Below are positions 12,823 through 61,783 of a DNA stretch of 64,000 nt, one piece after another. Positions within the stretch are counted from its first letter, which is position 1; the number at the start of each line of letters is the position of its first letter. The notes under the pieces are model-generated. The model ran no database searches, had not been told where the DNA came from, and saw only the letters and a list, made by a program, of their open reading frames with translations. Made by a program: the position numbers and the translations under genes. The stretch comes from Luteococcus japonicus (GTDB lineage: Bacteria; Actinomycetota; Actinomycetes; Propionibacteriales; Propionibacteriaceae), in the NCBI RefSeq assembly GCF_003752415.1, contig NZ_RKHG01000001.1, positions 1,240,001 through 1,304,000 on the forward strand, given 5' to 3'.

Positions 12823-14147
12823 ACCGCCACCTGCTCGATCTCGGCCGGCGCCAACCGGGGTCCCAGCGCGGCCCCGAGCGACACCAGCGCAGAGCCCGCG
12901 ATGAGCACCAGCACCACGGCGGCATTGCGGCTGGTCCCACCGGCCAGCCACGGAAGCCAGTAGGGATAGAGGGCCGGCAACACGATCGACGCGGAATATG
13001 CGGTGCCGTACCCGGTGGAGCGCACGTGGGCGGGAAAGGCCTCGCTCAGGTAGGCGCCGACCGGCCCGTAGGCGGTGACGGTGAGCACCTGCGCCAGCAC
13101 CGCGCCGACGATGAGCCCCACCAGCCCCGGCCCCGTGCCCATCATCCACAACCAGGCCGCGGAGCCGCCGACGGCGGCGATCGTCGTCGCGAAGAGGAAG
13201 TAGCGTCGCCGGCCGACCAGGGTCGACAGGTGCCCGGTGAGCGCCATCACCAGCGCCTGTCCCACCGACGCGAAGCCCATCACCACGGAGGCCCGGCCCG
13301 CCGAGAGCCCGGCGTCGCTGACCAGGCGTTGCCCGAGCAGCAGCACCACCATCTGGGTCATCAACCACAACCCGCTCATCAGGCAGAACATCCGCCAGAA
13401 GGCGCCCCGCCACGGCCCCAGCACCACCTCGCGCAGGCTGCCACGGGTACCTGCCTCGTCGATTCCCGGCCGCACGGCCCGGGTGGCATCGGCCACGTGT
13501 CGCCGGTAGAAGACGAACATGGCGCAGGAGGCCAGCCCGCCCGCAACGAAGGGAAGGCGCCATCCCCAGGCCGCATAGGACTCCGGCCCCAGGGCCATCA
13601 GCATGCCTGCCGTGACGAAGGCGATCGTCGCCTGCGCACAGGGTGCCATCGCCATGATCAATCCACTGAACAGCCCCCTGTGGCGCGGCGCGCTCCACTC
13701 CATGGCCAACGGCACCGCCGCCGAGTACTCCCCGGCAATGAACATGCCCCCGACGAAACGCAGCGCCACCAACAGCGCGAAGGTGGCGCCGCCCAGCACC
13801 CGGTGCGTGGGCAGCGCCGCGATCAACAGCGTGCAGGCCGCGGTGCCGGCGATGGCGACGGCCGTCGTGCGGGTGCGTCCGGCCCGGTCCGCGATCCGTC
13901 CGAAGACCGTCGCGCCCACCGGGCGGCCCAGCAGCATCGCCATCACGACGATGGCCGTGCCGGAGGACGCGGCGCTGGGCCCCGCAAGGGTCTTCATGGC
14001 CGGGGCCAGGGCCAGCGCCGGCAGGAAGATGTTGACCTGGTCCACGTAGTTCCCGATCACGCCGCCGGTGAGGGCGGCGCGGCGATACGTCGCCCGGCTC
14101 ACCCGCGGGGCCGCTTCGACGAGCGTGTGGGCATGGATCTTCGTCAT
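12819..14147 (-). CDS. MFS transporter under a TPP riboswitch (candidate thiamine-precursor importer)
   Basis: The 442-residue protein is a 12-helix MFS porter with motif A variants (GRIADRAGRTR; STLVGRRRY) and a GMFIAGEYSAAVPLAMEW segment typical of the metabolite/proton symporter branch. It is the first gene after the TPP riboswitch and is coupled by a 4-bp overlap to thiM. Since ThiM and ThiE together salvage thiazole, the transporter probably imports a thiamine precursor or thiamine itself. The start ATG at 14147 has a GGAAGAGAG ribosome site that is also the riboswitch 3' end. Confidence 0.85.
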   Translation of the reverse strand: MTKIHAHTLVEAAPRVSRATYRRAALTGGVIGNYVDQVNIFLPALALAPAMKTLAGPSAASSGTAIVVMAMLLGRPVGATVFGRIADRAGRTRTTAVAIAGTAACTLLIAALPTHRVLGGATFALLVALRFVGGMFIAGEYSAAVPLAMEWSAPRHRGLFSGLIMAMAPCAQATIAFVTAGMLMALGPESYAAWGWRLPFVAGGLASCAMFVFYRRHVADATRAVRPGIDEAGTRGSLREVVLGPWRGAFWRMFCLMSGLWLMTQMVVLLLGQRLVSDAGLSAGRASVVMGFASVGQALVMALTGHLSTLVGRRRYFLFATTIAAVGGSAAWLWMMGTGPGLVGLIVGAVLAQVLTVTAYGPVGAYLSEAFPAHVRSTGYGTAYSASIVLPALYPYWLPWLAGGTSRNAAVVLVLIAGSALVSLGAALGPRLAPAEIEQVAV

Positions 14148-14156
14148 GACATCTCT

Positions 14157-14247
14157 CTTCCTTCGCCGGCATGATCCGGGCAGGTTCGGACGGTCCGAGC
14201 GGCAACAGCTCGATCTCAGCCCTCTGCCGAGGGCTCCCGTGGGATGT
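14157..14247 (-). promoter_or_regulatory. TPP (THI-box) riboswitch
   Basis: On the minus strand the RNA contains the conserved GGGAGCCC...GGGCTGAGAT 5' half and the GAACCTGCCCGGATCATGCC...GGCGAAGGAAG 3' half of TPP riboswitches, in the right order. Binding of thiamine pyrophosphate would reduce expression of the transporter-thiM-thiE operon. A TAGGGT hexamer (14253-14258 on the complement) just upstream could be the -10, though the leader before the aptamer would be short. The 3' purine-rich end overlaps the ribosome site, suggesting translational control. Confidence 0.95.
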
Positions 14248-14428
14248 CCCACACCCTAGCGGTGTGTGAGGTGTGGCCCGCGCGACGGGCATCAGGTGAC
14301 AGGCGGGTGACGGATTGCTCAACGCGGGATGAGATGAACCCGAAGACTTGCTGAATCGGCTTCGGAGAAGCTGAAAGAACCCCGGTCAAGGGCCAGAATC
14401 GCCCCTCGCATCGACCAATCTGGGTGTC

Positions 14429-19758: not shown

Positions 19759-20285
19759 CGTGCCCCCTCCGGGTCCAGGTCCTCTGGGACGATCTGATCG
19801 TGGTCCGCCATGGTGACGGGGTCGGGCGGCAGCGCGTCCTCCTCGTCGTCGGCCAGGGCGTGCGGGTCCGCGGTGTCGGTGTAGTCGGAGCCGGACAGGT
19901 CGTTGGACTCGGCCAGTTCCTGCAGGCGTGTGTCCTCGGCGTCGTCGGCGACGTCGTCGGTGCTGGCCAGCTGCCACTGGCGGTGGGCCAGGGCCAGCAC
20001 GAAACCGGTCACGGCCAGGGTGATGACGATGGCGGTGAGCACCATGGCCTGTGGCAGCGGGTCGCTGATCCCGTCGGCCCCGATCCTGGTGGCGGCGGCT
20101 TCCGCCTTGTCGATGATCGGTGGCAGGCCGGCCGGGCCGGCGGCGACCAGGAAGGCCATGTTCACGCCATTGCTCATCAGCAGCACGCCGATCAGGGCCC
20201 GGGTAAGGCTGCGCGAGAGCAGCAGTGTCACACCACAGCCGAAGAGCACGCCGGCCATGATGGCGAGGGTCAGGTTGGGACTCAT
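19755..20285 (-). CDS. mrpC: Mrp Na+/H+ antiporter subunit C
   Basis: This NuoK-like subunit (176 residues) has three helices and the SLTRALIGVLLMSNGVNMAFL segment, then PLPQAMVLTAIVI. It carries an unusually long acidic C-terminal tail (about 65 residues, rich in Asp/Glu) beyond the usual 110-120 residues. The start overlaps the mrpA stop by 4 bp. Confidence 0.93.
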   Translation of the reverse strand: MSPNLTLAIMAGVLFGCGVTLLLSRSLTRALIGVLLMSNGVNMAFLVAAGPAGLPPIIDKAEAAATRIGADGISDPLPQAMVLTAIVITLAVTGFVLALAHRQWQLASTDDVADDAEDTRLQELAESNDLSGSDYTDTADPHALADDEEDALPPDPVTMADHDQIVPEDLDPEGAR

Positions 20286-28667: not shown

Positions 28668-29528
28668 ATGACTGCACTGCAGACCACCACCCTGAACAAC
28701 GGCGTCGAGATGCCCCTGCTCGGCTTCGGCGTCTTCCAAGTCCCGGAGGCCGCCGAGTGCGAGCGCGTCGTCAGCGAGGCCCTGGAGGCCGGCTACCGGC
28801 TGATCGACACCGCCGCCGCCTACGGCAACGAGGAGGCCGTCGGCCGAGCCATCGCCGCCAGCGGCATTGCCCCCGACGAGATCTTCGTGACCACCAAGCT
28901 GTGGATCCAGGACGCCGGCGAGAAGGCCACCCGCGCCGCCTTCGAGACCTCGCTGGCCAAGCTCGGTCTCGATCGGCTCGACCTGTACCTCATCCACCAG
29001 CCCTTCAACGACTACTACGGCTCCTGGCGCGCCCTGGAAGAGCTGCTCGCCGAGGGCCTGGTGCGCGCCATCGGAGTCTCGAACTTCTACCCCGAGCGAC
29101 TGGTGGACCTGGCCCTGAACGCCAGCATCGTTCCGGCCGTCAACCAGGTGGAGCTGCACCCCTTCTTCCAGCAGGCCGACGCCCTGGCCACGATGAACAA
29201 GCTCGGCGTCGCCCCGCAGGCCTGGGGCCCCTTCGCCGAGGGCCAGCACGGCATCTTCACCCACCCCGTCCTGACCCGCATCGGCGAGGCCCACGGGGTC
29301 ACCGCAGCCCAGGTTGCCCTGCGCTGGAACATCCAGCGCGGCGTCAGCGTGCTGCCCAAGTCTGTGACCAGCGAGAGGATCAAGGCCAATGCCGACGTGT
29401 GGGCCTTCGAGCTCAGCGCGTCCGAGATGGACGAGGTCGCCACTCTGGACCTGGGCCACTCGGAGATCATCGACCACAGCAGCCCCAACACCGTCGAGAT
29501 GCTCAACGGCCTGCGCATCCACGACTGA
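28668..29528 (+). CDS. Aldo/keto reductase
   Basis: The 286-residue NADPH-dependent reductase shows the AKR tetrad context: [15 protein letters not shown] (Asp, Tyr), VTTKLWI (Lys), LYLIHQPF (His), and the cofactor segment [11 protein letters not shown] near the C-terminus. The ATG at 28668 follows a GAGGAAGGA ribosome site. The second gene of the pair is an SDR 36 bp downstream, and a divergent LysR gene precedes it. Confidence 0.92.
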
Positions 29529-46765: not shown

Positions 46766-47284
46766 TCACAGATCGATCATGGCGAACCCTGGCTCTCGCC
46801 ACCACAGATGGCCCATTGCAGCTGACTGGCGCTGGCTCGCAAGCACCCGCTCCCCCACGCCGTGGAGAATCGCGTCGTAGGACGCCGCCTCGAAGGTGAA
46901 CTCCAAGGGGAACTCGATGGCGCTGTACGGCTCCTCGTGGTGACTGCCATCCCATCCGAACTGGTTCCAGCGCACCATCTGCCCACAACGTTCGATGGCG
47001 GCCGTGAGCGCACCGCAGCCAAGGTCGCCACACTCGCGACACACGTACAACTCCACTCGGCCAGCAGGAAGACTGACCTGGAGACCCAGGGACAAGGACG
47101 CCAACCAGGCCAGTCCGGACTCCAGATCCCATCCGGCTTGCAAGGGCGTGGAAGTCCACACCAGCAGATCTTCGCCGATCACTGAGCGCAGGGATGCGCG
47201 ATTCACGACGAGGTCGAGATAGCGAGGACAAAGCCGATTGCCATCCAGTGGCAGCGTCGACTCGACGAGGTCCAGATGATCCAC
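46766..47284 (-). CDS. Immunity-like protein, copy A1 (CxxC..C motif)
   Basis: The 172-residue protein has a central ELYVCRECGDLGCGALTAAI segment with three cysteines that could bind a metal. The family is widespread in actinobacterial genomes but its function is unknown to me; proximity to toxin-like genes suggests an immunity or accessory role. The GTG at 47284 lies 6 nt behind a TATCGT hexamer. It is paralogous to the gene at 54848, with the same length and flanking repeats. Confidence 0.7.
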   Translation of the reverse strand: MDHLDLVESTLPLDGNRLCPRYLDLVVNRASLRSVIGEDLLVWTSTPLQAGWDLESGLAWLASLSLGLQVSLPAGRVELYVCRECGDLGCGALTAAIERCGQMVRWNQFGWDGSHHEEPYSAIEFPLEFTFEAASYDAILHGVGERVLASQRQSAAMGHLWWREPGFAMIDL

Positions 47285-47325
47285 ACGCTAACGATAGACA
47301 TCTGAAATGCCTAGTCAACTAATTA

Positions 47326-54847: not shown

Positions 54848-55366
54848 TCACAGATCGATCGCAACGAAGCCTGGGTCACGCCGCCACTGAGGCCCGGTCG
54901 GAGCTGGCGGACGTTGCCTCGCGAGCAGCCGCTCCCCCAAGGCGCGGAGTGTCTCGTCATAGGACGCCGCTTGGAAGGTGAATTCCAAGGGGTCCCCGAT
55001 GGCGTCGTACGGCTCATCACTGAGGCTGTCATCCCATCCGAACTCGCTCCATCGCACCACTGACCCGGATCGTTCGATGTTGACCGTCAGCGCCCCACAG
55101 CCCAGGTCGCCGCACTCGCGACACACGTACAGCTCCACCCGGCCACCAGGAAGACTGTCCTGTAGCCCTAGGGACAAGGACGCTATCCAGCCAATCCCGG
55201 CTTCCAGATCCCATCCAGACCGCAACAGAGTGGAAGTCCACCCCAGCAAATCTTCACCGATCGAAGCGCGCAGGGATGAGCCGTTCACGACGAGGTCGAG
55301 ATACTGGGAACGAGGCCGATTCCCGTCCAGCGGCAGCGTCGACTCGACGAAGTTCAGATGGTCCAC
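54848..55366 (-). CDS. Immunity-like protein, copy A2
   Basis: The 172-residue protein is a close paralogue of the 46766 protein, with ELYVCRECGDLGCGALTVNI and the same start MDHLNFVESTLPLDGNR (MDHLDLVESTLPLDGNR in A1). The GTG at 55366 has a TATCGT hexamer 6 nt upstream. Both copies sit in units of exactly 599 bp between repeats. The function is unknown; immunity or a metal-binding role is speculative. Confidence 0.7.
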   Translation of the reverse strand: MDHLNFVESTLPLDGNRPRSQYLDLVVNGSSLRASIGEDLLGWTSTLLRSGWDLEAGIGWIASLSLGLQDSLPGGRVELYVCRECGDLGCGALTVNIERSGSVVRWSEFGWDDSLSDEPYDAIGDPLEFTFQAASYDETLRALGERLLARQRPPAPTGPQWRRDPGFVAIDL

Positions 55367-55407
55367 GAGACAACGATAGGCATCTGAAATCCCTAGTCAA
55401 CTAATTA

Positions 55408-55433
55408 TTGAAGCGGAATTCCACCACGTTCCG
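55408..55433 (+). repeat. Cassette-boundary repeat copy 8
   Basis: Copy of the 26-bp repeat with core GCGGAATTCCACC; minus-strand tail RNVVEFRFNN then stop. It is the last copy and lies at the border of the mobile element. Confidence 0.85.
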
Positions 55434-55498
55434 AACAGTACTTACGTATCAATCTCTAGGCCTTACGCTCTCAACTGCCAACACGCGTCCCACCTTGC

Positions 55499-55530
55499 TA
55501 TACTTGATGGCGTAGTCGAACGTCGACTAC
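55499..55530 (+). promoter_or_regulatory. Putative promoter with adjacent palindrome at the element's left end
   Basis: TATACT (55499-55504) is a good -10, and GTAGTCGA-acg-TCGACTAC (55512-55530) is a perfect 8-bp inverted repeat around the expected transcription start. It would drive the long leader and the element operon, and the palindrome could bind a repressor. Confidence 0.55.
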
Positions 55531-55611
55531 TACCCCGACCGGAGCAGTGCTCATCCGGCGGAAAAGATGAAGACCCCGGCACGAGCACACCGGGGTAAGA
55601 GGGACTGGCGG

Positions 55612-55647
55612 GCGACCCACCACCTTCGGATAACAGGGCAGGGTCGC
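55612..55647 (+). ncRNA. Possible third, degenerate copy of the leader RNA motif
   Basis: GCGACCC (55612-55618) pairs with GGGTCGC (55641-55647), and the loop ends in ATAACAGGGCA, resembling the GACAGAGGYCA of the two pseudoknots. No clear first stem could be found, so this may be only a simple hairpin. A CCCCGG/CCGGGG hairpin lies upstream at 55574-55595. Confidence 0.4.
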
Positions 55648-55696
55648 GTGTCGGACACAAGGGACGGGCTCCTCCGACTGCCACTGGTGACCCACA

Positions 55697-55746
55697 CTCG
55701 CGGGATCGGCGTGACTCCCGACGCGAGGACAGAGGCCAGAGTCACG
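55697..55746 (+). ncRNA. Leader RNA pseudoknot, copy 1
   Basis: Stem A is CTCGCG (55697-55702) with CGCGAG (55722-55727); stem B is CGTGACTC (55710-55717) with GAGTCACG (55739-55746). The two stems interleave, giving an H-type pseudoknot. The third loop is GACAGAGGCCA. Confidence 0.75.
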
Positions 55747-55798
55747 GGTGCCGAGCGAGATGGACGCGCTCGGGTAGACCGGCCGATTGCGAACCACA

Positions 55799-55844
55799 CT
55801 CGTCGGGCCTGGCGCTCCAGCGACGAGGACAGAGGTCAGAGCGC
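55799..55844 (+). ncRNA. Leader RNA pseudoknot, copy 2
   Basis: Stem A is CTCGTCG (55799-55805) with CGACGAG (55821-55827); stem B is GCGCTC (55812-55817) with GAGCGC (55839-55844). The layout is offset by exactly 100 nt from copy 1. Three stem-B pairs differ from copy 1 by compensatory double changes. The third loop GACAGAGGTCA is nearly identical. Confidence 0.75.
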
Positions 55845-55901
55845 AGCCGCCCTCATCGGTAGGTGAGGGACTCAAGTGGCGGCCACGAGTACACGGGTAT
55901 T

Positions 55902-55916
55902 GACTCCTGAGGAGTC
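55902..55916 (+). promoter_or_regulatory. Shine-Dalgarno-sequestering hairpin
   Basis: GACTCC-TGA-GGAGTC is a perfect 6-bp hairpin whose right arm contains the GGAG of the ribosome site for the GTG at 55920. It would block translation when formed. It follows the pseudoknots by 57 nt. Confidence 0.7.
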
Positions 55917-55919
55917 CCT

Positions 55920-56216
55920 GTGTCCTCGACACGCCACGTCCAGCCCACTTTTCTCACCCTCCAGCAGGCAGCCGCCGAGGGTTATGCCGCGTACTCCACA
56001 CTTCGGAAGTACATCGCTGACGGCCGGCTGCCCGCCGTCAAGGTCGGTTCCCGCGTCAAGGTGCTGCGCACCGACCTCGACGCTCTCGCGGTGGCCGTCA
56101 GGCCTGCGACCTTCGAGGAGATCGAGGCCGCCGCAGAACGGCTCGCCGCTTCCGCTCCCCCACTGAGCGACGCCCAGGTTCGTCGCCTCAGCACGATTTT
56201 CGGCGATGCGTCATGA
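55920..56216 (+). CDS. Small helix-turn-helix (excisionase-like) protein
   Basis: The 98-residue protein has a MerR/Xis-type winged HTH: FLTLQQAAAEGYAAYSTLRKYIADGRLPAVKVGSRVKVLRTDLDAL. Its C-terminal half is an acidic helix region. The GTG start follows GAGGAG (55909-55914), which lies in the hairpin above. The stop overlaps the polymerase start by 4 bp (ATGA). It may serve as an excision factor or copy control protein of the element. Confidence 0.75.
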   Translation: MSSTRHVQPTFLTLQQAAAEGYAAYSTLRKYIADGRLPAVKVGSRVKVLRTDLDALAVAVRPATFEEIEAAAERLAASAPPLSDAQVRRLSTIFGDAS

Positions 56217-59194
56217 GCGCCGCATCCTCCGGCTGGGCGCGTCACGAGATCACCGATGGCGCACGGCGCGGCATCGTCTTCGAGGTGCTCGTGCGGCGTT
56301 GTGCCCGAGCAACGGTCAGCGGGGGCGTGAACGTGCCCAACAATGCCTCGACCGGCGGGGCGAGAGAGTCTCAGATCCTCGTCGCCGAGTGTGATGGTTC
56401 CGAACTGTCACACTTTCTCAACCCCTCCGAGACCGACGTTTTCCCCGGTCAGGAGGCAGATGGTCGGGCACGGTCATTCACCCCTATGGGGAGCCCCGAG
56501 TTTCGACCGTGTGACCGTGTCGCTGCGACCAACTCGCCGGCGGCCGTCGCAGCGGGTGTGTCAGTGCCTGCGTCCGCGTTCGGCGACCTCCCGTCGGTGA
56601 AGGCGATGGGCACGGGCCGCGCCGGGATCATCGTCGGGTTCGACACCGAGTTCACGACCGTCGATGGTGCCCGGGTCATCGACTCGTACCAGTTCGCCGT
56701 GGCTGATCCGCTCGATCCGTCGGTGATGGTCGAGGTCGTCATCCTGCCGCCGCTGGGCTCCGACGCTCGCATTTCGCTGCACACAGCGCTGTGGGCCGTG
56801 GTCACTGCCGCTGAGCTGTGGCGCTCGCCTCTGGTGCCCGAAAAGTTGGGTCCCCGTGGCGTTCCTCGCGGGGCGTTCTGGTCGGAAGACTGGGAGGAGC
56901 GCCGGGAGGCCCTCGCGAAGTTGAGGGTGCCCCTCGTTCTCGCCTGCCACTACGGCGCAGCGGACCTCACAACCTTCCGTACGGGTGGTCATGCTCGGGA
57001 ACTGGACGCCCTCGTCCGCCTGACCTCGGCGGCCGGTGGGCTCGTGACGCTGCTGCCGTTCCGCTCGCAGCGCGGTAACGAGAACGGGCATTGGTGGCAG
57101 AGCATGTCGGTGACCGTTCGCGACACCATGTCCCAGGCTCCCGCTGGGAAGAAGACGCTGGCGGTGCTCGGTGAAGCGTGCGGTGTCGCGAAGCTGGACG
57201 TGCCGGATGACTGGATCTCCCGGATGACTGACTACCGGCGCGAGCACCTGGGCGAGTTCCTGGAGTACGGCGTCAACGACGCCGTCATCGTCGTGGAGTA
57301 CCTCGCCCGGCTGTGGGGCGACGGCGTTGTCCCACCGATCACGCTGAGCGGCGGTGCGGCCGCTGCTCTCGTGGACTCGGGAAGTGCGTACCTCGGCGCG
57401 TCCTCTCCTGCTGAGTTCCGCAGGAAGTTCGCAGGGCTGGTGGACGAGGACGAGGGCGTCGACGCCGTCGAAGAGGGCGACAGGCTGAGCTTCTACGCGA
57501 AGCGGGGGCGCAACCCTCTCGACGGCGCGGCTGCTCAGCTCTCCTCGGCGTTCGCACGTGCGTATCACGGTGGCTTGAATTCTTGTCCGATGCCGGGTTT
57601 CTACCCCGTGCCGACCGTGGACATCGACGCGCAGAACGCCTACCCGACCGCGATGGCGCTGGTGCGTGACCTCGACTGGGAGGCCGGTGCCATCGATGAG
57701 GTCGTGCACGAGCGCGTCATCACCATCGATGACGTCCCGACGGCGACGACGCCCTTCGTTGGGTTCGTGTCGTTCGTCTTCCCCACTGCCGTTCTGTACC
57801 CGTGCTTGCCGATCGTCGCTGACGGCACGCTCATCTACCCGCGCACGTCCGAGGGCGTCGCAGGGACGTGGGTGTGCGGTCCCGAGCTGTGGCTGGCCCT
57901 CCAGCTCGGTGCGCAGGTCCACTGCCAGATCGGTTACCTCGGTCGTGTGCTCGAGATCGACGGCGCACCGAGCCTTTCGCTGCGCCACGGCGTTAAGCAG
58001 TTGATCGACGACCGCAATACTGCCAAAGCGCTGTTCGGCAAGGAGTCGCTGGAAGAGCAGACTTTGAAGACCGGCGTGAACTCGGTGTACGGCAAGACCG
58101 CGCAAGACGTCGCCGAGCAGCGGTCCTGGGACGCTCGCGCGCAGGAGATGGACAACGTCGGTGGCTCGGCCGTTTCCAGCCCCTATCATGCGGCGACGAC
58201 CACGTCGATGGTCCGTGCTCAACTGCTCGCGACGATGAACCAGCTGAGCGAATACGGCAGGGACGTCTACTCGGTGACCACCGACGGCTTCATCACGAAC
58301 GCCACCGTGGATGAGGTCGTCGACCTCGAACTCTACGGGCTCGCCGAGGTGCTCGGGGAGGCGCGCACCGCCCTGACCGGGGACAGATCCATCTGGGAGG
58401 CCAAGCATGCTCAGAACGACCTGGTGAACTTCACGACGCGAGGCAACGTGTCACTTGACCTCGACGGCGTGTGTGCTCATAACGGGCTCAAGACTCCGAA
58501 GGACCTCGACGAGGACAGCTTCGAAGACCGGGAGCTGCTGTTGACCATGGTCGTCACCCGCGAGGGGCGCATTCCGAACGGGTACGACCGTCACCCCTCG
58601 TTTCAGGAGCTGTCGCGCACGACCGATCGCAGGGACTTCATCACGTCGTACGTCGATCGTTCCGTGTCGATGGACTACGACCTGAAGCGCAGCCCGGTGA
58701 TGACTTCGATGACCCGCGAGATGGTGCCCCTGCCGGACGGCTCCTCCCACGAGATGGCGACGTTCACTTCCGAACCGTGGGAGCAGGTCGAGGACTGTCT
58801 GCGCGCTCGGGAGATCGCCCGCGAGATGGCGCAGGCGGGATGTCTTCGCACCGTCTCGGAGTGGAAGGACTGGGAGATCCGCTTCTCGCACGGCAAGGGT
58901 CGTCGGATCGTTACTCCGCAGCGCGCGGTGCTGATGTCCATCGTCATGGCACATCGCCAGGGCGTGACCACGATCCCGACGCTCGCTGACCGTTCGCTGA
59001 GCATCGCGGAGCGTCTCGACTGGCTCGGTGAGTGGGGGCTCGGCACCGTCTCGCGCGGCGACTGGGACAACGCTCGCCGGCCCGAGCGGGCGTCCCAGAT
59101 GCTCCCCATCGACACGCTCGACCCGTACCTCGACCGGATGACATCCATGGCGTCCGGCGAACATCCCACGGACGCCGACCGGCTCCCGTACTGA
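56213..59194 (+). CDS. Family-B DNA polymerase of the mobile element
   Basis: The 993-residue protein has a complete 3'-5' exonuclease site (FDTEF at 143-147; CHYGAADLTTF; YGVNDAVIVVEY with Tyr and Asp) followed by polymerase motif A DIDAQNAYPTA (470-480), motif B KTGVNSVYGK (from 619) and motif C VTTDGF (Asp 691). Motif C has TDG in place of DTDS, so the first aspartate is absent. The first about 135 residues precede the exonuclease and have no known domain. Such enzymes in mobile elements can be protein-primed or primer-independent (piPolB); which one applies is not shown. The start overlaps the HTH gene. Confidence 0.88.
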   Translation: MSAASSGWARHEITDGARRGIVFEVLVRRCARATVSGGVNVPNNASTGGARESQILVAECDGSELSHFLNPSETDVFPGQEADGRARSFTPMGSPEFRPCDRVAATNSPAAVAAGVSVPASAFGDLPSVKAMGTGRAGIIVGFDTEFTTVDGARVIDSYQFAVADPLDPSVMVEVVILPPLGSDARISLHTALWAVVTAAELWRSPLVPEKLGPRGVPRGAFWSEDWEERREALAKLRVPLVLACHYGAADLTTFRTGGHARELDALVRLTSAAGGLVTLLPFRSQRGNENGHWWQSMSVTVRDTMSQAPAGKKTLAVLGEACGVAKLDVPDDWISRMTDYRREHLGEFLEYGVNDAVIVVEYLARLWGDGVVPPITLSGGAAAALVDSGSAYLGASSPAEFRRKFAGLVDEDEGVDAVEEGDRLSFYAKRGRNPLDGAAAQLSSAFARAYHGGLNSCPMPGFYPVPTVDIDAQNAYPTAMALVRDLDWEAGAIDEVVHERVITIDDVPTATTPFVGFVSFVFPTAVLYPCLPIVADGTLIYPRTSEGVAGTWVCGPELWLALQLGAQVHCQIGYLGRVLEIDGAPSLSLRHGVKQLIDDRNTAKALFGKESLEEQTLKTGVNSVYGKTAQDVAEQRSWDARAQEMDNVGGSAVSSPYHAATTTSMVRAQLLATMNQLSEYGRDVYSVTTDGFITNATVDEVVDLELYGLAEVLGEARTALTGDRSIWEAKHAQNDLVNFTTRGNVSLDLDGVCAHNGLKTPKDLDEDSFEDRELLLTMVVTREGRIPNGYDRHPSFQELSRTTDRRDFITSYVDRSVSMDYDLKRSPVMTSMTREMVPLPDGSSHEMATFTSEPWEQVEDCLRAREIAREMAQAGCLRTVSEWKDWEIRFSHGKGRRIVTPQRAVLMSIVMAHRQGVTTIPTLADRSLSIAERLDWLGEWGLGTVSRGDWDNARRPERASQMLPIDTLDPYLDRMTSMASGEHPTDADRLPY

Positions 59195-59556: not shown

Positions 59557-59880
59557 ATGAGCAACAAGACCACGACCAACCTCGACGAGCTGATCGAGCA
59601 GGAGCGCCGCCGTGCGACCGCGCGCATCGCCAAGCTCAAGCGTGCTGCCGCCGCCGAGCGGCGCCGCATCGACGGGAAGGTCATCGATCTGCTGCGCGAC
59701 CAGAACTCCGACCTCTACGACCGGCTCTCCCAGGAGGCAAGCGAAGCCCTTGCGGCGGAGAAGGCGAAGCGGTCGAGGCGTGCGAAGAAGGCGGCATTGT
59801 CCGTGGGCGCAGTGAACGACGGGACTGCCTCGCAGACCGTCGATCCTGAGCATGAGGAGGCGGCACCGTGGAACGGCTGA
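59557..59880 (+). CDS. Small charged coiled-coil protein
   Basis: The 107-residue protein is rich in Lys, Arg, Glu and Ala with a heptad-like helix (LDELIEQERRRATARIAKLKRAAAAERRRIDGKVIDLL). Small proteins of this kind often precede mobilisation genes and may be relaxosome accessory factors. GGAGAA precedes the ATG, and the end overlaps the MobC-like gene. Confidence 0.65.
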   Translation: MSNKTTTNLDELIEQERRRATARIAKLKRAAAAERRRIDGKVIDLLRDQNSDLYDRLSQEASEALAAEKAKRSRRAKKAALSVGAVNDGTASQTVDPEHEEAAPWNG

Positions 59881-60548
59881 CGGCACCGACCCGGGACTTG
59901 CGCCAGCGCCCCAGTGCCCCCTCGCCCGCAGGGAGCGCAGCGACCGAGGACGAGGGCCAGCGATTCTTGGAGGGCATGAGCGCCAGCGAAATGTCCGACA
60001 AGAACCCTGCTGGCCGTCTTCCGTACGCCCCGGAGAACGAGCCCGACTCCCCAAGCAGCGCTGGTCGGGATCGGTCGGAGGGGGGTGCGGAAGACCCGGC
60101 CCTGTCAGCGGAGCAGCACCACGACTCCCAGGTGAACACCGGTCGTGGTGCTGCGCAGAGGGCAGGGTCGGCCGAGGTTCCGGTGGAGCCTCGGAACAGC
60201 CGTCGTCGAGAGGTCTCTCTCGACGTGCGGCTGACGGTGGCTGACCGCAATGCGATCCGCCACCGCGCCCGCGTGCTCGGCGTCAAGCCGAGCGCGTGGG
60301 GCCGTGCCGTCATGCTCGACGCGCTGGACTCTAGGTCCTCGAAGGTCGAGCGGTTGGAAAGCAGTGCCGGAGAGAAGGAGGCGGCGCCGCCCTCTCTTGT
60401 TCGCGCAGTCGAGCAGCTGCGCCGAGTTGGTGTGAACCTGAACCAGGCGTTGCGCAAGGGCGCTGCCGTCGATGACGGCCTCCTTCACGAGGTGATGGCT
60501 GCGGTGGACGAGGTGCGTGCCTCACTCGGCGATCGGACGCGGACATGA
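59868..60548 (+). CDS. MobC-like relaxosome accessory protein
   Basis: The 226-residue protein has a long disordered N-terminus (about 110 residues) and a ribbon-helix-helix-type MobC region RREVSLDVRLTVADRNAIRHRARVLGVKPSAWGRAVMLDAL, then LRRVGVNLNQALRKG, typical of NikA/MobC proteins that bind oriT with the relaxase. The GTG start lies inside the previous gene, and the stop overlaps the relaxase start. Confidence 0.82.
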   Translation: MERLTAPTRDLRQRPSAPSPAGSAATEDEGQRFLEGMSASEMSDKNPAGRLPYAPENEPDSPSSAGRDRSEGGAEDPALSAEQHHDSQVNTGRGAAQRAGSAEVPVEPRNSRRREVSLDVRLTVADRNAIRHRARVLGVKPSAWGRAVMLDALDSRSSKVERLESSAGEKEAAPPSLVRAVEQLRRVGVNLNQALRKGAAVDDGLLHEVMAAVDEVRASLGDRTRT

Positions 60549-61783
60549 GCACCGTGAACGTCCGCCCCTCGACCAACGCTGCAGGAGCCGTTGGGTACAT
60601 CCTCTACGGGCGTGACCCTGAGGTGCGAAAGGAGCTCCTCAAGGGCGGGTCGACACGTGCAGCCGCGTATGCGATGTCGATGATCGATGGTGGGGCGACT
60701 CCGGCGGAGTTCATAGCGTGTGCTGAGGCGCACGCCGCTGCTCATGGTCGGACGAACCAGCTTCAGAGCTATGTGCTGGCATTCCACCCGGACGAGTTCG
60801 ACGTGACCTCGCAAGCTGACCTTGAGCGCATCCGGGACGTGGCCGTCGAACTTGCGGAACGCATGCATAGCGCTGACTACATGGTCGCGGTGCACTCGGA
60901 CTCCGCCGGAGGTCACGGGCACGCGCACATCCTCGTCATCAACCACGACAACCTCACCGGTAAGAGCCTCCAGCGGTACACGTCGTGGAAGCACGGACTG
61001 CGCCAGCTGAACGACGAGCTGATGGCAGATGAGGGCCTGCGGGTGCTCCCCGATCCCGAGGAGCCGAAGCCCGGCTGGGAGCTGCGCCGCGAGGTATTCG
61101 CTCCGGGCGGGTTCGAGCAGGTCCTCGGTGACAAGGTCTACGACGCACTGACCGACTCACGCTCGTCGAATCGTGAGGCGTTCGAGCGCGTCCTCGCCGA
61201 GCACAAGGTCACGCTCGCGGTGACGAACCGCGACGGCTGGAGCTACAAGATGCGCCGGGACGACAACGGGAAGCTCGGAAGGAAGAAGGCCTCGGCGCTG
61301 ACACCCGAGTTCACCGCCGAAGGTGTGCAAGAGATTTTCGACTACCACCAGCAGAAGGAGCAGGCTCATGGGGGCGTTGGACAGGGTCAAGCAGGCCGAC
61401 GAGCAGCAGCGGACTACGGAGATGCTGGAGACCTTGATCTCGCAGCGCGACGCCGACAGGCAGCAAATCGCGAATCTGACGAAGACCGTCGCCGACCTGA
61501 CCGGGTACGTGAAGATCATGGACGAGGAGCAGGCGACGCGACTGGATCGTCTGTCGACCTCGCAGCAGCACGAGCTGCCCTCCACGCTGCCGCTCGACGC
61601 CGAGTCGAAGAACAGGCTGAACGAGATCGAGAAGACAATCGAAATCATCGCGCAGCAGCTCGGCAGCAGCGAGGTCGTGAAACTGCCCGACGGGTCCTCG
61701 GTGACCAGGGCGGACCTGGCCGCGCACTCGATGACGAGGAAGATCAGCGAGGAGCTGAAGACGACGGCCTCGGCCTCGGCTGA
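60545..61783 (+). CDS. Relaxase (MOB family), with a doubtful C-terminal tail
   Basis: The N-terminal part has a candidate nicking tyrosine (VGYILYGRD) and the three-histidine metal motif GHGHAH (H124, H126, H128). The relaxase would nick oriT and lead strand transfer. From about residue 275 the frame overlaps the next gene, which is clearly coding, and the translation becomes low complexity (QGQAGRRAAADYGDAGDL...). The true protein may end near 61370, or a frameshift may lie there. It is coupled by a 4-bp overlap to the MobC-like gene. Confidence 0.82.
   Translation: MSTVNVRPSTNAAGAVGYILYGRDPEVRKELLKGGSTRAAAYAMSMIDGGATPAEFIACAEAHAAAHGRTNQLQSYVLAFHPDEFDVTSQADLERIRDVAVELAERMHSADYMVAVHSDSAGGHGHAHILVINHDNLTGKSLQRYTSWKHGLRQLNDELMADEGLRVLPDPEEPKPGWELRREVFAPGGFEQVLGDKVYDALTDSRSSNREAFERVLAEHKVTLAVTNRDGWSYKMRRDDNGKLGRKKASALTPEFTAEGVQEIFDYHQQKEQAHGGVGQGQAGRRAAADYGDAGDLDLAARRRQAANRESDEDRRRPDRVREDHGRGAGDATGSSVDLAAARAALHAAARRRVEEQAERDREDNRNHRAAARQQRGRETARRVLGDQGGPGRALDDEEDQRGAEDDGLGLG

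Follow-up and report, generated by a model that had tools for sequence, protein, structure and literature searches.

A likely functional RNA with tandem pseudoknots in the leader of the excisionase gene of a pipolin-like element

The preQ1 and SAM-II riboswitches act on translation and possess pseudoknot aptamers. In T4, a single pseudoknot is located 67 nt upstream of the start codon of gene 32 and is followed by an A+U-rich run, according to excerpts of a 2010 review in which gene 32 is presented as perhaps still the only viral case of a pseudoknot in translation autoregulation; the same excerpts attribute to the operator of T4 gene 43 a hairpin and no evidence of a pseudoknot (PMC3014915). 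Concerning pipolins, the excerpts available of two articles (PMC7385651, PMC9710591) report tyrosine recombinases in the E. coli elements and contain no mention of leader-RNA control of excision or replication. Those of the latter article name S. epidermidis among the hosts of plasmid pipolins and describe plasmid pipolins without att-like repeats of the kind reported below (PMC9710591). Literature searches returned nothing joining pipolins with pseudoknots or with Actinomycetota, and nothing on tandem pseudoknots combined with leader, bacteria and riboswitch.

The window analysed here, a stretch of 64,000 nucleotides from Luteococcus japonicus, contained the following genes and sites around the leader of an excisionase-like gene:

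55408-55433, + strand: att-like repeat (26-mer) preceding the leader, with 26 of 26 positions matching the common pattern
55475-55504, + strand: promoter-like site from a consensus scan (CTGCCA, spacing of 18, TATACT, with TG before the latter)
55920-56216, + strand: excisionase-like HTH_17 protein of 98 aa (Pfam HTH_17, 7e-07; NCBIfam TIGR01764, 8.2e-08)
56213-59194, + strand: family-B-type, piPolB-like DNA polymerase of 993 aa (tblastn match to the pSE-12228-03 polymerase; PHROG match)
59868-61783, + strand: mobilisation genes, encoding a NikA-like protein and a MobA/VirD2-like relaxase

The polymerase shared 25.4% identity, over 62% of the query, with the polymerase of the S. epidermidis plasmid pSE-12228-03 (tblastn, 2e-38), which we take to be the published pipolin plasmid, and it matched a PHROG DNA polymerase (4.9e-07), with no match in Pfam, the PDB or IMG/VR. 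An ArdA gene was also found downstream of it, and a 518-aa serine recombinase extended past the end of the window. The relation to the pSE-12228-03 polymerase suggests a family-B polymerase of the piPolB type, as in pipolins, and the predicted polymerase, excisionase, relaxase and recombinase would together fit a pipolin-like element. It differs from the E. coli pipolins in its serine recombinase, where those possess tyrosine recombinases (PMC9710591, PMC7385651). The excisionase had no plasmid match.

The promoter-like site (one found, compared to a mean of 0.2 in shuffles, which by itself is no evidence of function) implied a leader of about 410 nt. Two pseudoknot units, U1 and U2, were located between this site and the GTG start of the excisionase-like gene, in agreement with an earlier note that had placed them in the leader of a mobile element:

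55697-55746, + strand: pseudoknot U1 (stem 1, 55697-55702 with 55722-55727; stem 2, 55710-55717 with 55739-55746; loop 3, 55728-55738)
55799-55844, + strand: pseudoknot U2 (stem 1, 55799-55805 with 55821-55827; stem 2, 55812-55817 with 55839-55844; loop 3, 55828-55838)

In a whole-window stem scan, U1 possessed a stem 1 of 6 bp (CTCGCG/CGCGAG) and a stem 2 of 8 bp (CGTGACTC/GAGTCACG), with loops of 7, 4 and 11 nt, while U2 possessed a stem 1 of 7 bp (CTCGTCG/CGACGAG) and a stem 2 of 6 bp (GCGCTC/GAGCGC), with loops of 6, 3 and 11 nt. All pairs in both units were Watson-Crick. The two interleaved two-stem pseudoknots that the earlier note had described within 55697-55844 were thus present in the sequence, as was the conserved third loop, which is 11 nt long in each unit (GACAGAGGCCA in U1, GACAGAGGTCA in U2). 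Among the 12 pairs common to the two units, five showed changes in both partners and no pair had a change in a single partner: the three double changes already described in stem 2 (stem B of that note) were recovered, and two further ones were found in stem 1 (P ~5e-6, under a model in which five changes of the 3' arms are placed at random). The claim that pairing is kept between the copies holds over these 12 pairs but not beyond them, as two extra stem-2 pairs occurred only in U1 and a seventh stem-1 pair only in U2. The reported spacing of exactly 100 nt is that of the stem-1/loop-3 junctions, the 5' ends of the units being 102 nt apart.

A probable third, diverged unit (U0), absent from the earlier note, was found upstream of U1:

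55599-55647, + strand: probable pseudoknot U0 (stem 1, GAGGG 55599-55603 with CCTTC 55623-55627; stem 2, GCGACCC 55612-55618 with GGGTCGC 55641-55647; loop 3, 55628-55640)

Its stem 1 has 5 bp, including one G-T pair, its stem 2 has 7 bp, and its loops measure 8, 4 and 13 nt. The stem-1/loop-3 junctions of U0, U1 and U2 (55628, 55728 and 55828) are in exact 100-nt register. For a fixed junction, scores as high as that of U0 occurred at 75 positions out of 63,900 in the window and in 5 shuffles out of 20,000; the U0 score was reached in 10 of 4000 shuffles with a looser register, and equalled the median of the best shuffle scores when the register was disregarded. Loop 3 of U0 showed no significant sequence similarity to the other units (score reached in 1543 of 3000 shuffles), and no knot was found at the further in-register places 55428, 55528, 55928, 56028 and 56128.

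By pairing alone, a single unit is ordinary. Knots of a comparable class occurred in 44 bins of the window when scanned by pairing alone, the U1 score was exceeded at 6 positions, belonging to three other places of the window, and leader shuffles matched the U1 score in 1 of 60 cases and the U2 score in 4 of 60. These frequencies, both in the window and in shuffles, would suit an old, functionless tandem duplication in GC-rich DNA in which the pairing arose by chance, as would the result that no homologue was found in which selection could be seen (see below). The compensation pattern of U1 and U2 and the exact register of the three units make such a duplication very unlikely; repeat, register and compensation count as evidence when taken together, and a functional RNA in the leader is likely.

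A repeat scan further revealed complementarity between the units and the start of the excisionase gene, involving the following features:

55724-55735, + strand: anti-start word CGAGGACAGAGG of U1
55824-55835, + strand: anti-start word CGAGGACAGAGG of U2
55917-55928, + strand: CCTGTGTCCTCG, the target of the anti-start words, covering the first three codons of the excisionase gene, including its GTG start at 55920
55645-55665, + strand: long anti-start segment after U0, pairing with about 55913-55934 (duplex of -34.1 kcal/mol)
55902-55916, + strand: hairpin GACTCC-TGA-GGAGTC, identified by eye, enclosing the ribosome-binding sequence AGGAG (55910-55914)

The word CGAGGACAGAGG, present in both U1 and U2, consists of the end of the 3' side of stem 1 and the first eight bases of loop 3. 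It is complementary to CCTGTGTCCTCG at 11 of 12 positions, a match spotted post hoc in the repeat list and expected in a random 30-nt stretch of leader composition with a chance of about 4e-5 (17 of 400,000). Among 5331 windows of the + strand, the excisionase start region was the best duplex partner of the word. When both bases were accepted at the mismatch, the word and its complement were present in the window at exactly the three sites listed above, and one further mismatch added a fourth place at 19927; these 4 occurrences compare to 1.34 expected, and 7 of 100 shuffles had at least 4.

The same three occurrences, written as the word CGAGGACA(G/C)AGG at 55724 (+), 55824 (+) and 55917 (-), fall within 205 bp and adjoin a gene for a helix-turn-helix protein, a layout also expected of double-stranded binding sites for the excisionase, the pseudoknots being incidental. 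Such sites predict neither the five paired changes that keep complementarity nor an in-register knot devoid of the word (U0), and they appear improbable as the explanation of the locus.

For the longer segment after U0, the -34.1 kcal/mol of its pairing with the start was matched in 0 of 100 shuffles, and a marginally shifted choice of slice gave 1 of 100; both comparisons favour the real leader a little, as it was scanned at every position and the shuffles at alternate positions. Among 22-nt slices, those of U2 (-26.6 kcal/mol) and U1 (-23.9) did not beat the median best of shuffled leaders (-26.3), and a segment at 55591 paired with the start equally well. The folding energy of the whole leader was ordinary (z = -1.34; 9 of 100 shuffles) in a program unable to fold knots. 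When knots were charged a penalty of 9.6 kcal/mol and loop terms were left out, the calculated energies of the three units were -15.8, -18.9 and -18.0 kcal/mol in the knotted state and -14.9, -14.8 and -16.2 kcal/mol in the best nested fold, respectively, so that the knotted state is predicted to be slightly favoured in every unit.

The favoured reading, put forward as a best guess, is that the leader controls translation by means of anti-start words contained in its pseudoknots. In a knotted unit, stem 1 and loop 3 would sequester the word, leaving the start free to open; in an unknotted unit, the word, or the longer segment after U0, would pair with the start and block initiation. Knot and block would be mutually exclusive because both need the same CGAG of stem 1. 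Several copies would give a steeper response, and some factor (an operon-encoded protein or a small ligand) would shift the balance toward one of the two states. In its general form, the reading assigns to the excisionase-polymerase operon of a pipolin-like element a control RNA that acts in cis from the leader of about 410 nt, and it has about an even chance of being correct. Its more specific form is doubtful: an array of three knots, two with the anti-start word and one followed by the longer segment, acting as a cooperative autogenous operator that senses the polymerase or the excisionase. With such an array, an element possessing its own, possibly primer-independent, DNA polymerase would set its own expression.

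The nearest working parallels are found in T4: the knot of gene 32 and the operator of the gene 43 polymerase. As for gene 32, an H-type pseudoknot precedes the start within the leader of a DNA-replication gene carried by a mobile genome, and its proposed role is the control of translation start. The differences are that two or three GC-rich knots 100 nt apart are present here, with words complementary to the start, and that the A+U-rich unstructured run over the ribosome-binding site is absent from this leader, which has by eye a GC-containing hairpin instead. Under the autogenous reading, a gene product would bind the knots, as with gene 32. With the gene 43 operator of T4 and RB69, through which the polymerase represses its own translation, the leader shares its place before an operon for a family-B-type polymerase, whereas the first gene here encodes an excisionase. 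The proposed mutual exclusion of a knot and a sequestered start region resembles the logic of the preQ1 and SAM-II riboswitches; the present leader differs from these by its lack of an Rfam match and by a knot seen in one element only; no conserved aptamer beyond chance was found outside its own genome in the sets searched for the family (198 genomes), class (394) and phylum (396). A multi-knot translational switch, if true, would offer a direct handle on the control of excision and replication in pipolins, and would be a rare case beside T4 gene 32.

With Watson-Crick pairs throughout U1 and U2, the pairing itself shows no preference for RNA. Together with the polymerase and relaxase encoded by the element, this would be compatible with single-stranded DNA structures that serve the excised element as an origin of replication or transfer and are recognised by one of these two proteins. 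An origin of this kind is unlikely in view of the place of the units between the promoter-like site and the start codon, of the complementarity of the conserved word to the excisionase start, of the G-T pair in U0 and of the distance of about 4 kb to the relaxase genes; the position of the units argues for RNA rather than single-stranded DNA as their working form.

The minus strand of the leader possessed a terminator-like hairpin with a T-rich tail (55596-55573; mean of 0.4 in shuffles), which could end an antisense transcript. Control by antisense RNA, as in plasmids where a small antisense transcript opposes the leader of a replication gene, would also be in line with the repZ leader of IncI plasmids, which uses a pseudoknot. 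It is nonetheless quite unlikely here: no promoter-like site was found on the minus strand, the terminator-like site recurred only in locus L165 among four relatives, and the copies and the anti-start word would be left unexplained. Two other readings were discarded. ARAGORN, run for a tRNA or tmRNA, only found a tRNA-Sec gene elsewhere, and a protein reading of the repeats fails on the 99-aa ORF at 55567-55866, in which the units are in different frames because 100 nt is no multiple of 3.

The earlier note had not recognised the RNA as a described family, and Rfam indeed gave no match within 55400-56000 up to an E-value of 5; at gathering scores, the only match in the window was a TPP riboswitch. 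This riboswitch (14141-14250, - strand) and the tRNA-Sec gene (29063-29154, - strand) are both far from the leader.

A covariance model built from the two copies, which the same note had suggested running against actinobacterial genomes, brought no homologue beyond chance. The model, comprising sequence and the 6 pairs of stem 1 and used with strict filters, found nothing above chance outside the element in 198 genomes of the family, 394 of the class and 396 of the phylum. These sets include the genome of the window itself, and those of the class and phylum are overlapping samples. The best E-values in other genomes (0.0044 for the family, 0.0027 for the class and 0.0018 for the phylum) are about those expected by chance for 198-396 genomes, and 53 of the 198 family genomes had a match at an E-value of up to 1. 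At the level of sequence patterns, GAGGACAGAGGNCAGAG was found in at least 114 stretches of the genome contigs (several among the 80 listed being short tandem repeats of a purine word) and in 43 stretches of IMG/VR, where CTCG...CGAGGACAGAGG occurred at least 120 times and CACACTCG...CGAGGACAG 28 times; scanning for both stems revealed no homologue among the IMG/VR matches listed. Scans for both stems, under differing rules, covered 169, 288 and 371 loci. The largest gave 1847 motif sites, and once the seven loci of the window's own genome were excluded from the match list, four foreign sites reached a score of at least 24, the highest being 27.15 in L288; all four were taken as chance. Locus L201, considered as a homologue, was rejected, as its stem-2 arms form by eye a plain hairpin and the locus had been selected by pattern. 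Blastn searches of plasmid and phage sequences gave no homologue of the knot; there were 48 weak matches to plasmids, those listed being short pieces with E-values of 0.5 or more. The covariation consequently rests on two, probably three, copies internal to the element, and no homologue was found that could serve as an independent test of the stems or of the anti-start pairing. The structure is supported, we infer the function, and the RNA is an orphan in the searches run.

Relatives of the polymerase were found in five of the 198 family genomes, including that of the window, and the order sample (391 genomes) contained the same five; the class sample (394 genomes) gave the window's genome only. 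The closest relative, in genome G020, matched in two overlapping pieces, one at 80% and the other at 76% identity. These pieces (G020:C15:218704-221708; L165, L169) are in different reading frames, and this copy is therefore broken or mis-sequenced. G020, G001 and G026 shared a common leader unlike that of the window, with a mean column identity of 81%, and the leader of G072 differed from all others. The common leader had no match to any Rfam family. The DNA similarity to the window began inside the excisionase gene, at about 55953 for G026, 55998 for G001 and 56027 for G020, and for G072 only inside the polymerase gene. As the similarity starts within the excisionase gene, the leader and the first codons appear to have been exchanged as a unit, which suggests that the leaders of such elements are exchanged as modules.

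The covariance model did not find the knot in the leaders of the four relatives, its best match being on the opposite strand (L165, 17.3 bits). None of these leaders contained an outstanding pseudoknot, the best ones being reached by 17, 43, 30 and 31 of 60 shuffles, and their best leader-to-start pairings were reached by 4, 65, 34 and 17 of 100 shuffles, with the start codon placed 1-2 nt off in L165 and L166. In the leader common to G020, G001 and G026, 16 of 85 predicted pairs were kept through two-sided changes across the three sequences, and others were broken. This second leader type, located at L165:890-1205, L167:60-365, L168:58-365 and L338:6895-7215, occurred in three polymerase elements and one plasmid remnant, and showed some compensated pairs as well as a hairpin over the ribosome-binding site. 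The plasmid is from Tessaracoccus flavescens and matched the common leader at 87.4%; a stand-alone leader was considered there and dismissed, as the 283-bp match enters, by eye, the start of a truncated excisionase gene and was read as a remnant. A phage origin was rejected as well, since phage records contained nothing matching the leader together with part of the excisionase gene, the relatives' leader or the polymerase.

Similar att-like sites were located directly upstream of the leader in the four relatives, whose 20-kb stretches contained one to three such sites each, and blastn also matched the repeat in G026 and G072. Locus L333 had a single site with 3 mismatches, as did 8 of 200 shuffles. 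In the window, the att-like repeats were six left-side, direct copies of the 26-mer, all on the + strand (46727, 47326, 48664, 50114, 52822 and 55408; 23-26 of 26 positions matching), and the cargo between them included a Fic protein and an IS1380 transposase (NCBIfam), among others. These copies may represent an array of cassettes, or else insertions made one after another by the serine recombinase. The 60 bases preceding two of them (47266-47325 and 55348-55407) were nearly identical, and two cassettes therefore seem to have a common end.
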